A DNA stretch of 64,000 nucleotides from Methylosinus trichosporium OB3b (GTDB lineage Bacteria; Pseudomonadota; Alphaproteobacteria; Rhizobiales; Beijerinckiaceae), in NCBI RefSeq assembly GCF_002752655.1, contig NZ_CP023737.1:2752001-2816000 (forward strand), in the 5' to 3' direction. The notes beneath the pieces are model-generated. The model saw only the letters and a program-made list of their open reading frames with translations. It had not been told where the DNA came from and searched no databases. The position numbers and the translations under genes were made by a program. Below are positions 7,762 through 36,655 of this stretch, one piece after another. How positions within the stretch are numbered: position 1 is the stretch's first letter; each line of letters starts with the position of its first letter.

Positions 7762-8215
7762 TCGAGCTTTCGGTTCCATCTGTTGGTCTTCATTCAACTC
7801 GAGCGCCGTTTATGCGGCTTTCGAATGCAACAGCGTAGACGTAGTTCTCATCTGGATCTGAGATCGGACGGCGCGTCGATGACAGCGCCGCGCGGCGATG
7901 GTCGCCGTGGCGCGTTCCAGGGTGAATCGATGTTCGGTCAATTCATCAGACAAATTCTCACTGCATCCAGAGAGCCGGCCAATCCACGAGCAAGCGAAAA
8001 GGATCGGCGCGCGCGCCGATGTTCGACACATCCATGCGCGAGATCGGCGGCTATCACACCGAGCGGGTCGTTGACCGGTGGACAGCCCGCTATCGGATGG
8101 CGCCATTCCCGGCGCCGAGCGATGGACGATCATTCCGGTCATGAAGACGCGCGGGACCTGTCCGGCCTCGGCGCGAAGAGAGTCGCCGCTCCCGCGCTGA
8201 TTTTGCCGCTTAGAA
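7762..8215. other. gene-poor stretch left of the integrated element
   Basis: No convincing gene lies in these 454 bases. A 41-codon frame at 8019-8144 (MFDTSMREIGGYH start) has amino-acid composition like a real protein and could be the remnant of a longer gene, but I cannot assign it. The region would be the original sequence downstream of tRNA-Lys before insertion of the element. Confidence 0.35.
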
Positions 8216-8265
8216 TATTGGTGGGCGCACAAGGGCTCGAACCTTGGACCCGCTGATTAAGAGTC
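8216..8265. repeat. attachment site, left copy (tRNA-Lys 3' fragment)
   Basis: Fifty bases identical to 16220-16269. The match covers the encoded CCA, the acceptor 3' strand, the T arm and the anticodon-arm 3' part of tRNA-Lys, then breaks off ('gagtctcacgg' here against 'gagtcagctg' in the intact gene). It is the distal junction left by integration. Confidence 0.92.
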
Positions 8266-8381
8266 TCACGGTTCGGCATTTCGACGGATTTATCGACGCT
8301 CCCTAAGCATTCCCAACCGCATGAATAGATGCGATTTTCATTGCATTTCGATTCCCTGAGTTTACTTTGAATGCCGTTCGC

Positions 8382-8403
8382 GGTGGCGACACGGTGGCGA
8401 CAC
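8382..8403. repeat. tandem 11-bp repeat, candidate integrase arm site (left)
   Basis: Two abutting copies of 'ggtggcgacac' lie between the left attachment site and the integrase start. A matching tandem pair is at 16145-16166, inside the other end. Such directly repeated short sites flanking both cores fit arm-type binding sites for the integrase or its excisionase; this is inferred from position. Confidence 0.6.
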
Positions 8404-8414
8404 GGGATTGCACA

Positions 8415-9707
8415 ATGCCGATCAAGCTGACGAAACGAGCTGTCGACGGCCTCGCCGCGAGGGAGCGGGCATTCATCGAATTCGACGCCGACATCGCCGG
8501 CTTCGGCGTTCGCGTCATGCCGAGCGGCGTCAAATCTTTCGTGGTCGAGTATCGCCCGCACGGCGGCGGGCGCAGCGTCGCCAAGCGGCGGGTCACCCTC
8601 GGCAAGACGACGCAATTGACGCCGGAGCAAGCTCGCCGGGCGGCGGCTGACATGCTGGCGCAGGTGCGGCTCGGCGCTGATCCTGCCGCCGAAAAGGCGA
8701 GCCATCGGGAAGCGCTCACGGTCGCGGGCCTGATAGAGGCGTTCGAGGCCGAGCACGTCGCCGGCAAGCTGAAGGACTCGACGGGCCGATCCTATCGCGC
8801 CGGGCTGGACGCTCTGAAGGGTGCGCATGGCTCGCTGAAGGCCGAAGCGCTCACGCGCGGACAGGTCGCGGCCCTGCACGCAAAGATGCGCGCGACGCGC
8901 TATGCGGCCAATCGGGCGCTCGCCACATGGTCGAAGATGTTCGCTTGGGGAATGAAGCGCGGCCTCGTTCCGAAGGGCGATAATCCGGCGCGGGAAATCG
9001 ACCGCTACAAAGAGGATAAGCGCGAGCGTTTCCTCACATCCGAGGAACTGGCGCGGCTCGGCGACGCTCTGCGGGAGGGCGAGACGAGCGGCCTCGTCTA
9101 TGAGGTCGACGAATCGAAGCCGAAAGCCAAACATGCGCCGAAGCTGGAGAATCGGCGCGTCAAGCTCGACCCCTTAGCGGCCGGCGCAATCCGGCTCCTG
9201 ATCCTCACGGGCGCGAGGCTGCGGGAAATCCTCGATGCGCAATGGTCGCAAGTCGACAGCGAGCGCGGCATTCTATTCCTGTCGGACAGCAAGACGGGCC
9301 GCAAGTCGATCTATCTGAGCGCCGCTGCGCAAGCCGTGCTGGCGAACCTGCCGAAGATCGAAGGCAACCCGCACGTCATCGCCGGCGCCAAGGATGGCGA
9401 GCCGCGCGCGGACCTCAAGAAGCCCTGGAGCGCGGTGAAGCGCGCGGCCGGCCTCGAGGGGGTGCGGCTTCACGACCTGCGGCATTCCTTCGCCAGCGTC
9501 GGCGCTGGCGCGTCGCTCGGCCTGCCGATCATCGGCAAGCTTCTCGGCCATACGCAGGCCGCGACGACGGCGCGCTACGCGCATCTCGACGCCGATCCGC
9601 TGCGAAGGGCCGTCGACACGATCGGCGCGACGATCGCCGCGGCAATGGACGGCGGGAAGCCGGGTGGCGAGGTTGTGCCGTTCACAAAGAAGCGCGATGT
9701 TACTTGA
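8415..9707 (+). CDS. P4-type tyrosine recombinase (integrase)
   Basis: This 430-residue enzyme catalyses site-specific insertion and excision at the tRNA-Lys gene. It has the N-terminal DUF4102 domain ('IKLTKRAVDGLAARERAF', 'DADIAGFGVRVMPSGVKSF'), a SAM-like core-binding domain (about 100-200) and a catalytic domain with Arg near 268 ('TGARLREI'), 'HDLRH' at 353-357, 'LLGHTQ' and the nucleophile Tyr near 388 ('TTARYAHL'). ATG 8415 fits the usual 'MPIKLTKR'-type start; an in-frame ATG at 8367 would add 16 residues that overlap the tandem repeats. It reads inward from the left attachment site. Confidence 0.95.
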   Translation: MPIKLTKRAVDGLAARERAFIEFDADIAGFGVRVMPSGVKSFVVEYRPHGGGRSVAKRRVTLGKTTQLTPEQARRAAADMLAQVRLGADPAAEKASHREALTVAGLIEAFEAEHVAGKLKDSTGRSYRAGLDALKGAHGSLKAEALTRGQVAALHAKMRATRYAANRALATWSKMFAWGMKRGLVPKGDNPAREIDRYKEDKRERFLTSEELARLGDALREGETSGLVYEVDESKPKAKHAPKLENRRVKLDPLAAGAIRLLILTGARLREILDAQWSQVDSERGILFLSDSKTGRKSIYLSAAAQAVLANLPKIEGNPHVIAGAKDGEPRADLKKPWSAVKRAAGLEGVRLHDLRHSFASVGAGASLGLPIIGKLLGHTQAATTARYAHLDADPLRRAVDTIGATIAAAMDGGKPGGEVVPFTKKRDVT

Positions 9708-9963
9708 TATACCCAGAAAGCTGCCTTGCGCACATAGCGAGAATCGAGCATACTTGAGTCTCGCGTTCGTTCCCGGCGATACAGGGGCGTTTCGTCACTG
9801 CCACGATACGGCGGGGGTCGTCGCACCGACTTTAAAGAGGCGTTTCGCGACCGCGGCGACATGGCGGGTCGGCTTCGCACGGCCGTAAAATGGGCGCGCC
9901 GCATTCGAGCGGCCTCGTCGAATCGCGACGATACAGCGAGCAACCGAATCCCGAGGATCGCAC

Positions 9964-10233
9964 ATGCACAGCGAAGCTGTTGCGTGCGGGGATGGCGTCG
10001 CACGCTCCTCCTCCCACGCCCTTTTGAAGACGCCTGAAGCGTCGGCTTACCTCTACTCGACCTACCGGATTTCCACGCCGCGCACGCTCGTGAAGCTGCG
10101 CTGCATTGGCGGCGGGCCTGCATTTCGTCGGATCGGTCGCGCGGTCGTCTATGAGCGCGATGCGCTCGACCGCTGGGCGCAGGCTCGCCTCTCGCGGCCG
10201 ATGTCGTCGACCTCCGACACGGAGGCCGCATAA
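9964..10233 (+). CDS. AlpA/excisionase-like helix-turn-helix protein
   Basis: The 89-residue protein contains an HTH_17-type MerR-like fold: 'LLKTPEASAYL' (about 21-31), the recognition area 'STPRTLVKLRCIGGGP' and the 'FRRIGRAVVYERDALDRWAQAR' wing and helix. Proteins of this kind in islands act as excisionases or as activators of the integrase and replication genes. It is the first gene of a rightward row of tightly packed genes reaching 14616. The 256 bases upstream contain two copies of 'ggcgtttcg' that could be binding sites. Confidence 0.85.
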   Translation: MHSEAVACGDGVARSSSHALLKTPEASAYLYSTYRISTPRTLVKLRCIGGGPAFRRIGRAVVYERDALDRWAQARLSRPMSSTSDTEAA

Positions 10234-10237
10234 CGCC

Positions 10238-10450
10238 ATGGCCGAAACGAAAAGGCCCGCCGCGCTGGCGACGCGGCAGGCCCTGAGAAATTTGTCATGC
10301 GGCAAAGCTGACGGGTTTCTCAATACTGCAATTCAGCCTTCGGTTTCAATTGAAAACCGCCGCGCGCAATTGGTCGCGCGACGCTTTCGAATTTCTGAGA
10401 CGCTTGCGGCCGTCGTCGTCTCCCTCTGCTACGGGGAGGCGCGGCAATGA
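10238..10450 (+). CDS. small hypothetical protein of the element (70 residues)
   Basis: The frame starts with ATG 10238, five bases after the stop of the AlpA-like gene, and its TGA overlaps the next ATG at 10447 as ATGA. That coupling on both sides is the main reason to accept it. The C-terminal half 'RRAQLVARRFRISETLAAVV' looks helical, resembling a small DNA-associated peptide common in such islands. No further function is visible. Confidence 0.6.
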   Translation: MAETKRPAALATRQALRNLSCGKADGFLNTAIQPSVSIENRRAQLVARRFRISETLAAVVVSLCYGEARQ

Positions 10451-28760: not shown

Positions 28761-29005
28761 GCTCGGAAGGCCTCGCGCAAGGTTGCGTGTCTCGATCCGC
28801 CTCTAACAGATCGCGGCCGTTTCGCAAAGCGAGGGGCTGCGCGGCCGCTCGGGCGGTCGAGGAGCTCGGGACCGGCGCCTCATCGACTACACCAGCCGCA
28901 AAACCAGCGGCCAGCGCTATTAATCTTAACTTCTTTCCGAGTTTGATTGCTGACAAGGCCACGCTTACGATCGCCTCTATCGCGCATCACTTTAGGAGGC
29001 TTGTC

Positions 29006-30394
29006 TTGTATTTCCAAAATATTTCTCGTTTGCTTCTTTGCGTATCGATCGCTCTGCCGGCCGCCCCGGCCGTCGCCGCGAATTCGACCCGCACGAGGCT
29101 CATCGCCGTCAGCCCTTCTCCTGCCGGAAGCCCTGTGACGTTGACGGCGGAGGTGGACGCGCCGGCCGGCGTCGGCGGCGCTACTGGACGCGTCTCCTTC
29201 ACCGACGGCGAGAGGATCGTGGGATCGGCTCTCGTGAACGCGCTCGGCGGCGCGCAGACGAGTCTGTCGCTCGGGCTCGCCCACGCCTGCGCGCTCGCCA
29301 GTCCCTCGGGAGTCGAATGCTGGGGCTGGAACAAATACGGTCAGCTCGGCGACGGCGCGACGACCGACCATCTTCCGGCCCCTGTCACAGGCCTCACCAA
29401 AAGAGTGGTCGCGCTGGCGGTCGGCGGGGTCCATAGCTGCGCGCTGACGGTCGAGGGAGCCGTGATCTGCTGGGGCGAAAACTCGCTCGGTCAGCTCGGA
29501 GGCCCTACGCCGGACCGGGCGCAGCCTGCTCCCACTCCGGTTCCCGGCCTTTCGAGCGGCGTCATCGCGATCGCATCCGGATCATATCACAGCTGCGCTG
29601 TGACCGAGGCCGGCGCGATTTTCTGCTGGGGCCGCAACGTCGAGGGCCAGATCGGCAACGGCGTCGACTTGGAAACATTCGCTCCGCCGACGCGGGTTGG
29701 CGGCCCTGCCGAAATCTATACGGATGTGGCGGGCGGCGCTTCTCACAGCTGCGGCCTGACGAATGCGGGCGCGGTGCTGTGCTGGGGCCAGGGGTTCGGC
29801 AAGGTTCCCACGCCGGTCGCCAAGCTCGGCAGCGGGGTCGTCGCATTGACGGCGGGCTCCTATCATGACTGCGCTCTCACCAAGGCCGGCGCCGTCCAAT
29901 GCTGGGGGCCGGCATGGAACGCCGGCGCCCCGACGCCGGTCGCTGGCCTGTCGAGCGGCGTCGTCGCAATCTCGTCTGGAAGCGGGCATGATTGCGCGCT
30001 GCTGCGCGACGGCGGCGTGCGCTGCTGGGGCTATAACCAATATGGCCAGCTCGGCGACGGAACGACCACAGATCGCACGATCCCGACGCCCGTCCTGAAC
30101 CTCGGCGCCGCCGCGGTCGCGATCGCCGCCGGCTTCGACTTTTCCTGCGCGCTGCTGTCGACGCGGGCGGTGAAATGCTGGGGTTATAACGAGGTCGGCG
30201 AGATTGGCGACGGCGGCGTGACGAACCAGCCTCTCCCCGTCCCGGCGAAGGGCCTCTCCGCCCTGCTGCGCACCCGCGCCCGGCTCACCACATCGACGCT
30301 CGGAAACGGGCTCCATGCTCTGCGCGCGAACTATCTCGGCGACGCGGCTCATGCGCCTTCGCAATCCACTCCGCTGCCGATGCGGCTCAAATGA
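29006..30394 (+). CDS. exported RCC1-repeat protein with split Ig-like domain
   Basis: TTG 29006 lies six bases after a perfect 'aggagg' (28994-28999), which fixes the start and gives 462 residues with a signal peptide ending near 'AVAA' (residue 25). Residues about 30-85 look like the first half of a bacterial Ig-like domain ('SPVTLTAEVDAP', 'ATGRVSFTDGERIVGSA'). Seven RCC1 repeats follow, each with a Cys pair ('HSCAL' ... 'VxCWG'), enough for a seven-bladed propeller. The last 35 residues ('LTTSTLGNGLHALRANYLGD') look like the second half of the same Ig domain. Likely secreted or cell-surface; ligand unknown. Confidence 0.85.
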   Translation: MYFQNISRLLLCVSIALPAAPAVAANSTRTRLIAVSPSPAGSPVTLTAEVDAPAGVGGATGRVSFTDGERIVGSALVNALGGAQTSLSLGLAHACALASPSGVECWGWNKYGQLGDGATTDHLPAPVTGLTKRVVALAVGGVHSCALTVEGAVICWGENSLGQLGGPTPDRAQPAPTPVPGLSSGVIAIASGSYHSCAVTEAGAIFCWGRNVEGQIGNGVDLETFAPPTRVGGPAEIYTDVAGGASHSCGLTNAGAVLCWGQGFGKVPTPVAKLGSGVVALTAGSYHDCALTKAGAVQCWGPAWNAGAPTPVAGLSSGVVAISSGSGHDCALLRDGGVRCWGYNQYGQLGDGTTTDRTIPTPVLNLGAAAVAIAAGFDFSCALLSTRAVKCWGYNEVGEIGDGGVTNQPLPVPAKGLSALLRTRARLTTSTLGNGLHALRANYLGDAAHAPSQSTPLPMRLK

Positions 30395-34231: not shown

Positions 34232-35326
34232 ATGAGAGCATCTACCGAAGTTCTCCGCCAGAATGCAATGGCGAATATGCGAAGTCCCCATGAAATGGGG
34301 ATAATCTGCATCGATATCACCAACAAATGCGATCTCGCCTGCTCGAACTGCACGCGGCTGCTCGTCAATCAGGACCGGTTCTGGGACATGTCGCTCGAGA
34401 ACTTTCGCCTCGCCGTGCGCAGTCTCGCCGATTATCCTGGAATCATCGCGGTCATCGGCGGCAATCCGGCGATGCACCGGAGCTTCGAAGAGATCTGCGC
34501 CATTTTCGTCGAGGAGATTCCGCAGAAGGAGCGACGCGGACTCTGGACCAACAATATCTTCAGCTTCGCCGATCTCGCGAAAAAGACTTTCGGCGTCTTC
34601 AATCTCAATCCGCATGGCGTCGAGCGTGGGATCAAATCGCTCGAGCCTTTGCGCGATGGCGCTTGGTATCATGGCGGCCATTCGTCCCACGCGCCACTGC
34701 TGACGGCGCTGAAAGATCTCTTCGACGACGAGGAGATGTGGCGACGAATCGGGCGCTGCGACATCAACCATGAGTGGTCGGCGTCGATCGTCGAGAACAG
34801 AGGGCGGCTCAAGGCTTATTTCTGTGAGGTCGCCGCCTCTTTCGATCTCGCGCGGGGAACCGATTTTGGTGTCGAAGTGACGCCCGGCTGGTGGCGTCGC
34901 GACATTTCCACTTTCGCCGATCAGGTTGCGCGCTTCTGCCCGGGCTGCGGCGTGCCGGCCAAGGTCGTCGGCCATATGGATTGCGAGGAGATCGACACTT
35001 TTACTGTGAGCAACGCCGACATAGCGGAGAGTTCGCTGCGCAAGAAACGCTCGATCATCGCACTGGACCAGGACGACGCACATTTCCTCGGCCGACAAAG
35101 GGTGACCGAATATTCTCCCATGCTTCGCGCCGAGGGGAATGGCTCCGCCACGGGCGTCGTGAAGCGGTCGGCGCCGGTCGAGACTCCTGAAGCAGCGCCG
35201 CGGAAGCCGAGCCGACCCCTTTTCGCGCGGCCCAATGTCGAGCTCGAGTTCGCCAAATTTCTCTGTACGATCGGCCTCACCCGAGCAGGCACACGATTGT
35301 GGAACACGGCCAAGTCCCGAAAATAA
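34232..35326 (+). CDS. radical SAM protein of unknown specificity
   Basis: ATG 34232 gives 364 residues. The radical SAM motif is 'CDLACSNC' (CxxxCxxC) near residue 31, in 'CIDITNKCDLACSNCTR'. 'IAVIGGNPAMH' and 'GLWTNNIF' follow at typical barrel strands. A second Cys cluster, 'FCPGCGVPAK' and 'HMDCEE', lies at about 230-255 and may bind an auxiliary cluster. The end 'VELEFAKFLCTIGLTR' is repeated at the end of the next gene. It is 147 bases upstream of the glycosyltransferase gene and likely in one operon with it. It may modify a sugar, lipid or peptide of the cell surface (inference). The longer open frame upstream looks non-coding. Confidence 0.85.
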   Translation: MRASTEVLRQNAMANMRSPHEMGIICIDITNKCDLACSNCTRLLVNQDRFWDMSLENFRLAVRSLADYPGIIAVIGGNPAMHRSFEEICAIFVEEIPQKERRGLWTNNIFSFADLAKKTFGVFNLNPHGVERGIKSLEPLRDGAWYHGGHSSHAPLLTALKDLFDDEEMWRRIGRCDINHEWSASIVENRGRLKAYFCEVAASFDLARGTDFGVEVTPGWWRRDISTFADQVARFCPGCGVPAKVVGHMDCEEIDTFTVSNADIAESSLRKKRSIIALDQDDAHFLGRQRVTEYSPMLRAEGNGSATGVVKRSAPVETPEAAPRKPSRPLFARPNVELEFAKFLCTIGLTRAGTRLWNTAKSRK

Positions 35327-35473
35327 CCGTTTCTTCGAGCCGGACTCTTGCGGCGGCGCGCCGACGCGAGAGGCCGGCTCGTCGTCTCAGAAGATTTCGG
35401 CAGTAGCCGTGTCGGGTCCCGTCGAAATCTCGGCCGAGCGCCGCCTTATCACATCAAGCTCCGGAAGAGGCCG

Positions 35474-36655
35474 ATGACTGCAGCCTACCGTCTGCCGATC
35501 GTTTCCATCATCGTGACCAATTACAATTACGGGCGGTTTCTCCCTCAGGCATTGAACGCCGTCCGGCAACAGACCTATCCGCATTTGGAATGCATCGTTG
35601 TCGACGATTGCTCCACCGACTGCAGCCACGAGGCTCTCGATACAGCGGTTCGCGAGTGGCCCGAGCTGATCGTCATCCGCCAGCAGACGAATGGCGGCCA
35701 ATCTGCGTCTTGTCTAGCGGGCCTCGCGCGCGCCAGTGGCCAATACATCGTCTTTCTCGACGCAGACGACCTGATCACCGAGGAGTTCGTCGCCGCTCAT
35801 CTCGCGGCGCATTTCTGCTTGCGCACGCCAGTAGGAATGACCTGTTGTGATTGTTTCACCCTGCGGGACGAGCGGCTCATCTGTTCGACCTCACGCTATC
35901 TCGCGGGCCATTTCGCGAGCCGACCTGCGGATCCCACGCTCGTCCATCGCGGGGGCTTCGATCTGCTGCGGGAAGCGGGCTTCGAGCCGCCGGAGATCGA
36001 TTTCGAGGCTCTGCGTCTGATCCCATGGAACGAGAATCGGTGGCCGTGGTCATCGATGTCCGCGATGATGTTTCGCCGTGACGCGCTCGATCTGGTGACG
36101 GGCGCGAAAGGTTTCGTGCAATTGCGCGTCGGCACCGACTGTTTTCTGGCTTGGGCGGTGAATCGGCTGACTGGCAGCGTCATCATGGAGCTGCCGATGA
36201 TGATCTATCGCATCCACGGCTCCAACAGCTTCGCTGCGCGCGCCTCGCTCAATCATATGCGGCCGGGACACGCCGGCCTCGTCTTCGATTATCGCGCCGA
36301 TCAAATTCTGCTCGACCATCTCATTGAAAATTTCAGATATTTCCACGCCATCCTGGACAACGCCGAGCATTTGCGCGGGCTCTGCGAGCTCGTCGATCAA
36401 TCCGCCGCGAATGGAGAGAAGGACAGGCCCACGTTGAGCGATCTGCTCAGTGGGCATTTCGATGAGATCGTCGGGGCGCTCGGTCACGCTGAAGCGGCGC
36501 TATGGCTCAAGAAATCGAAGGGCGCGCATGGCGCGTTCGGCTTTCTCGGCGTGCTGCCGCCGAGGGTTGAGCTGGAAATCGCAAAGTTCCTCTGCTCGAT
36601 CGGTTCGACGCGTGGCGACGAAGTGTGGAATCGCGCGATCAGGCGCCTCTCGTGA
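35474..36655 (+). CDS. family 2 glycosyltransferase
   Basis: The 393-residue protein begins with the GT-A fold of family 2: 'VSIIVTNYNYGRFLPQAL', 'IVVDDCSTD', 'NGGQSASCLAGLARASG' and the metal-binding 'FLDADDL'. ATG 35474 is preceded by 'gaagagg'. There is no transmembrane segment, so it is a cytoplasmic transferase, acting perhaps on a polysaccharide or glycolipid. Its C-terminus 'VELEIAKFLCSIGSTR' repeats the tail of the radical SAM protein. This shared end is the strongest hint that the two work together. Confidence 0.9.
   Translation: MTAAYRLPIVSIIVTNYNYGRFLPQALNAVRQQTYPHLECIVVDDCSTDCSHEALDTAVREWPELIVIRQQTNGGQSASCLAGLARASGQYIVFLDADDLITEEFVAAHLAAHFCLRTPVGMTCCDCFTLRDERLICSTSRYLAGHFASRPADPTLVHRGGFDLLREAGFEPPEIDFEALRLIPWNENRWPWSSMSAMMFRRDALDLVTGAKGFVQLRVGTDCFLAWAVNRLTGSVIMELPMMIYRIHGSNSFAARASLNHMRPGHAGLVFDYRADQILLDHLIENFRYFHAILDNAEHLRGLCELVDQSAANGEKDRPTLSDLLSGHFDEIVGALGHAEAALWLKKSKGAHGAFGFLGVLPPRVELEIAKFLCSIGSTRGDEVWNRAIRRLS

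Follow-up and report, generated by a model that had tools for sequence, protein, structure and literature searches.

Unrelated enzymes can be brought together by short address tags, of which most known cases come from shelled compartments and megasynthases. In modular polyketide and peptide synthases, docking domains are short helical elements at protein termini that specify which proteins meet, and these domains come in matched pairs of heads and tails. For bacterial microcompartments (BMCs), PMC11157265 describes encapsulation peptides as terminal amphipathic helices of 15-20 residues that are joined through a flexible linker and bring several enzymes together. Here we describe a C-terminal tail that is under purifying selection, is separated from the core of its enzyme by a linker predicted to be disordered, and is carried by unrelated enzyme families. 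A survey of titles and the beginnings of abstracts, drawn mostly from papers outside subscription journals, yielded no account of this tail or of the pair of enzymes, a radical SAM protein and a glycosyltransferase (GT), on which it was noticed.

The window analysed is a stretch of 64,000 nucleotides from the 5.18 Mb genome of Methylosinus trichosporium OB3b. Within it a radical SAM protein of 364 aa (34232..35326, predicted start) and a family 2 glycosyltransferase (GT2) of 393 aa (35474..36655, predicted start, with an in-frame TTG upstream at 35348) are encoded in the same orientation on the forward strand. The radical SAM protein comprises a core with a predicted twitch-like part, a linker (residues 301-333, 35132..35230) and a C-terminal tail (residues 334-364, 35231..35323), and ends in ...RPNVELEFAKFLCTIGLTRAGTRLWNTAKSRK. 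The GT tail, identified by BLASTP, codon comparison and class-specific profiles, occupies residues 363-393 (36560..36652), and the protein ends in ...PPRVELEIAKFLCSIGSTRGDEVWNRAIRRLS. Pfam places PF00535 in the GT with E 4.4e-27 (95.5 bits against a gathering cut-off of 23.3) and PF04055 in the radical SAM protein with E 1.6e-4, where the 22.4 bits fall short of the gathering score, 29.5. Elsewhere in the window, an open reading frame of 535 aa (28787-30394) contains repeated units of the H(S/D)CAL...GxVxCWG type, which we take to resemble RCC1-type repeats.

When the two whole proteins were compared by BLASTP, the last ~30 residues alone aligned (19/30 identical, E 3e-7), the next-best segment being noise (E 0.8). 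With the GT tail as query, a six-frame search of the entire genome returned, after the query's own match, the radical SAM tail at E 9.3e-6, followed by a single match at E 1.6. Together with the profile controls given below, these searches rule out chance as the source of the similarity. At the DNA level the tails are about 60% identical, different codons are used at 14 of the 19 identical residues, and pS is 0.78; because synonymous sites between the tails are saturated, a recent duplication can be rejected. The original prediction had claimed that two proteins of unrelated families share a C-terminal motif, and that the divergence of the underlying DNA points to selection and not to a recent copy. 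Both frames and both tails are where it placed them, the bodies do not align above noise and match different Pfam entries (PF04055 below its gathering score), and the diverged DNA is accompanied by low dN/dS in each tail.

The dN/dS ratios come from comparison of the window with Methylosinus sp. Sm6, of the same genus, and each rests on two sequences and, for tails and linkers, on 18-31 codons, those of both tails and of the radical SAM linker numbering 27-31. For the radical SAM protein they were 0.15 in the core, 1.13 in the linker and 0.11 in the tail; for the GT they were 0.17 in the N-terminal part, 0.30 in the middle, 0.76 in the linker and 0.17 in the tail. The AlphaFold model of the radical SAM protein (mean pLDDT 84.9) has the same modular architecture: residues 306-333 fall below 50, consistent with a disordered linker, and the tail is predicted to form two helices (336-346 and 352-363) at a modest pLDDT of about 55-70. 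Confidence is lower, too, near the radical SAM motif (residues 31-50; 70 and 59). The GT model was discarded owing to its mean pLDDT of 45.6.

The tail is a minority feature among homologues of both window enzymes. The search for radical SAM homologues found 473 and listed 120, eight of which have the tail, namely the window entry, its Sm6 counterpart and six proteins, one named Methylocapsa aurea, that bear a long form (RPWxKPxAEFxLTxGR......LTxxGERLWRx), and it was absent from the other 112. Both window tails are of the short form; the one on the radical SAM protein agrees better with that on the GT (53%) than with the long-form tails borne by radical SAM homologues (37-41%). Over 21 aligned rows a G and a W are invariant, and A, T, G and L are conserved in at least 90%. 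Among GT2 homologues the tail was missing from 21 of 25 ends read; these ends were taken from 30 loci with frames chosen by pattern, and the row for one locus (L011) is a neighbouring gene, the GT end of that locus having been read separately.

A first profile drew its ten tails solely from radical SAM proteins and, for this locus in the two strains, from the GT. Its matches included further GT2 proteins, with E as low as 2e-13, and PhyH proteins at E between 4e-5 and 2e-3. Profiles restricted to one enzyme class each were also run over 4426 frames and proteins. The radical-SAM-only profile found other GT2 tails at 32-47 bits (best E 4e-13) and PhyH tails at 19-29 bits (best E 2e-7), with reversed and shuffled controls starting at E 1.8; against the window GT tail it gave 14.3 bits over 17 residues (E 0.006). 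The GT-only profile detected long-form radical SAM tails at 44-54 bits, PhyH tails at 19-26 bits and the window radical SAM tail at 26 bits (E 2e-6). The PhyH-only profile recovered long-form radical SAM tails at up to 29 bits (E 2e-7) and GT2 tails at 12-29 bits, but not the radical SAM tails of the short form (E 2.7 and 4.1); the link from the window pair to PhyH thus runs solely through the long-form tails. Across the class-specific profiles the best reversed or shuffled match reached 7.9 bits (E 0.7); the similarity between families therefore stands well above the controls.

By Pfam, the tailed bodies carry PF00535, PF05721 (PhyH) or PF13704. All four PhyH matches in 20 genomes were the tailed ones, so the independence of tail and body rests on the other classes. 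On a GT2 tree of 13 tailed and 11 tail-less bodies (11 of 22 tail-less loci kept; 7 of 21 inner branches open), the window GT groups with tail-less rows (98/100). The tailed rows require two changes, the strongly supported branches alone force one, and 1% of bootstrap trees need one; a single origin of the tail within GT2 thus stays compatible with this tree. In a sequence database the window GT tail retrieved itself alone among 11 candidates, and three consensus tails retrieved one GT2 and one PhyH protein among 144, both searches being limited by their short exact words and by database size.

Searches for the motif in the genome and in relatives, a check put forward with the original prediction, extended it to further proteins. 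A third tailed protein in the same genome, another GT2, lies outside the window (G000:C1:487917-488015), and a final profile gave clear matches in 13 of 298 genomes of the family, the same-genus genomes G004, G006 and G007 being among those with no match. The E-values of this last profile (A4) are flattering, as the tails of most matched proteins were built into it; the first and class-specific profiles are the independent tests. A genome was called tailed if it had at least one match at E <= 2e-10, which left out G062, G068, G165, G192 and G306 (E 1.6e-4 to 0.009), and the 298 genomes were taken as one draw across searches, as far as handles agree. PF13704 proteins in G165 and G192 have a partial motif (E 0.001 and 0.003) and were not counted. 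On a rescan, the 13 tailed genomes yielded 19 matches with E no higher than 2.2e-7; next came the GT tail of Sm6 (0.0069), and the remaining, weaker matches began at 0.03.

Eight of the 13 (G001, G002, G003, G008, G164, G228, G264, G300) had a single tailed protein at E <= 0.01, a count in which a diverged second tail could hide, since the real Sm6 GT tail scored just 0.0069 and weak matches occur in G264 (0.03) and G164 (0.07). The lone tailed protein is a PhyH in G164, G264 and G300, a PF13704 protein in G228 (73% complete) and a GT2 in the others. Beyond the family, and leaving aside the own genome, E <= 0.01 was reached by three weak matches in 397 genomes of the order (best E 0.0033) and by two in 289 of the class (best E 0.0042). 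Scoring in these samples was confined to the top 19 or 27 first-look candidates of each genome, so that rare diverged tails could have escaped. A general fold recurring in many unrelated proteins, which would have counted against the original prediction, is rejected within these limits.

The radical SAM gene itself occurs in four of the 298 family genomes, spread over two genera, and in two (G000 and G009) of the 13 tailed ones; two of its four loci have tails on both enzymes and two on neither. One tail-less locus has the frame of the Beijerinckia mobilis locus, and the end found at the other is that of B. indica P0017. The prediction had also counted absence of the tail from orthologues of either gene against itself, and here the outcome is mixed: the tail is present in Sm6 and absent from the two genomes of the other genus as well as from most listed homologues.

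Several matches stood apart. G257 has two tail matches, one of which (L098/L079, G257:C29:40640-40744) lies in a 100-residue frame with a PhyH-like end, an apparent gene remnant; a whole tailed PhyH gene is found on contig C44 of the same genome. In G068 (L104/L111, frame 7856-10414) a short-form motif, RPIERELAKFLGTIGFKDYGRLLW, lies near 8744-8830 (E 1.6e-4), apparently close to the start of a glycosyltransferase-like gene and not at its end; since 298 genomes were searched, this match is only suggestive. At L073:9099-14051 (G238), two tailed GT2 genes alternate with two genes for membrane proteins that look acyltransferase-like by eye, in a neighbourhood resembling sugar metabolism (genes called with a simple in-house script).

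The predicted fold of the radical SAM core is closest to the SpeY and BtrN dehydrogenases, which combine a radical SAM core with a twitch domain and oxidise an alcohol of a sugar or cyclitol by two electrons. In a 52-row alignment the cysteines of the CX3CX2C motif (C33, C37 and C40; 34328..34351) are invariant. So too are C176, C198, C236 and C239 (34757..34948), but C26 and C89 likewise. The auxiliary 4Fe-4S cluster of BtrN is ligated by four Cys (PMC9012708), and by the fold match C176, C198, C236 and C239 are candidate ligands of an auxiliary iron-sulfur cluster. None of the 17 NCBIfam radical SAM families listed came near its cut-off, the best reaching 21.2 bits where 380 are required, and searching the sequences of solved structures with the radical SAM alignment gave no match at E 0.01. 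GT2 fusions were seen in 21 of the 120 listed homologues (e.g. P0053, P0058, P0074, P0097) and a fusion to an exostosin-type domain in one. The family, whose members in several bacterial groups are fused to glycosyltransferases or encoded next to them, looks like a sugar-modifying enzyme. At the position of the tail, P0020 and P0037 instead have a PF02810 (SEC-C-type) end and others have short basic segments; the C-terminus of these proteins looks like a swapping point.

We suggest, at roughly even chances, that the tail is a portable C-terminal docking module that recruits glycan-modifying enzymes to an untailed partner, most likely a protein. Such a module, about 27-35 residues long, would consist of two short helices on a flexible leash, appended within one alphaproteobacterial family to unrelated bodies (GT2, the GT2-like PF13704, twitch-type radical SAM and PhyH dioxygenase), and its binding to a partner without the tail would keep the tailed enzymes together at one site. 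In the window it would place the GT beside a radical SAM enzyme that might oxidise or epimerise a sugar carbon of the same glycan or nucleotide sugar. From the enzyme types, the product would probably be a glycan and the role one in surface modification. The prediction of a docking or targeting peptide that brings both enzymes to one site is thus upheld in part: the tail is selected, follows a linker predicted to be disordered, sits on unrelated families and is concordant at all four radical SAM loci, but with 8/13 genomes single-tailed, its use extends beyond bringing two tailed enzymes together. Not being a clamp between just two enzymes, the tail should have some other binding target, pair with itself in homodimers or attach to the membrane. 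Docking is favoured because specific residues are kept across enzyme classes and because other radical SAM homologues end differently. Counted against it are the uneven cross-family signal, the modest pLDDT of the tail, the amphipathic helices and the potential single origin within GT2.

The main rival, unlikely in our judgement though far from negligible, holds that the tail is an amphipathic helical hairpin lying on the inner membrane, the site of lipid-linked glycan building, with no protein receptor. Of 14 hand-picked helices taken over all tails tested, nine had hydrophobic moments above those of shuffles at p < 0.05, with amphipathic helices seen in long-form tails; in the window pair amphipathicity is weak (one of four helices at p < 0.05), and helix 1 of these tails has a net charge of -1. 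Several tail-less radical SAM homologues end in short basic stretches (SLFGRIKSLF or LMDRIRSMFGY) that might be functional replacements; such ends, however, were not above shuffles (p 0.15-0.37, seven tested), and the residues kept across families exceed what a lipid surface would need. That the tails pair with one another, so that an enzyme tailed on its own would form homodimers and the two window enzymes would form a complex, is rather improbable: the short form common to both window tails, and their closeness to each other, fit such pairing, as does the concordance of the four radical SAM loci, whereas in the majority of tailed genomes, those with one tailed protein found, homo-association alone would be left.

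A signal for degradation or turnover, read by a protease or adaptor, would suit the terminal position of the tail and the hydrophobic last residues of many GT2 and long-form radical SAM tails, yet we consider it very improbable; 5-12 more residues follow the matched part in PhyH proteins, in the PF13704 protein L061 and in the window proteins. We give least credence of all, next to none, to targeting into a protein-shelled compartment (BMC or encapsulin). Encapsulation peptides are indeed built as a short helix at the protein terminus, joined by a flexible linker (PMC11157265), but no BMC shell protein was matched in the 13 tailed genomes; a control search of 14 named genomes was positive in two. 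For encapsulin shells, 11 of the 13, including the own genome, gave no match, and the other two (G257 and G300) matched PF04454 over profile positions 165-253 of 253 only.

Returning to docking, it is tempting, if doubtful, to imagine an undescribed scaffold that, in a family including methanotrophs, lines up tailed GTs, a radical SAM sugar oxidase and a 2-oxoglutarate hydroxylase as an assembly line in the cytoplasm; the tail would be its universal plug, the short and long forms fitting two receptor variants. If docking holds, a tag on glycosyltransferases, radical SAM enzymes and dioxygenases that occurs where no microcompartment shell was matched would point to a new mode of organising glycan synthesis, and the tail would offer a direct handle for fishing out the partner.

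Compared with known tags, the tail resembles BMC encapsulation peptides in being a terminal helical element behind a flexible linker (a prediction for the radical SAM protein alone), and differs from them in having two conserved helical segments in place of one helix. Unlike the docking domains of synthases, one type of tail is found on several enzymes, with no receiving half found. The window GT has the PF00535 catalytic domain typical of family 2 glycosyltransferases and is set apart from most of its homologues by the tail. The radical SAM protein, 11-15% identical to SpeY and BtrN, differs from them in that homologues of its type are fused to glycosyltransferases or lie beside them and, in some lineages, carry the tail.
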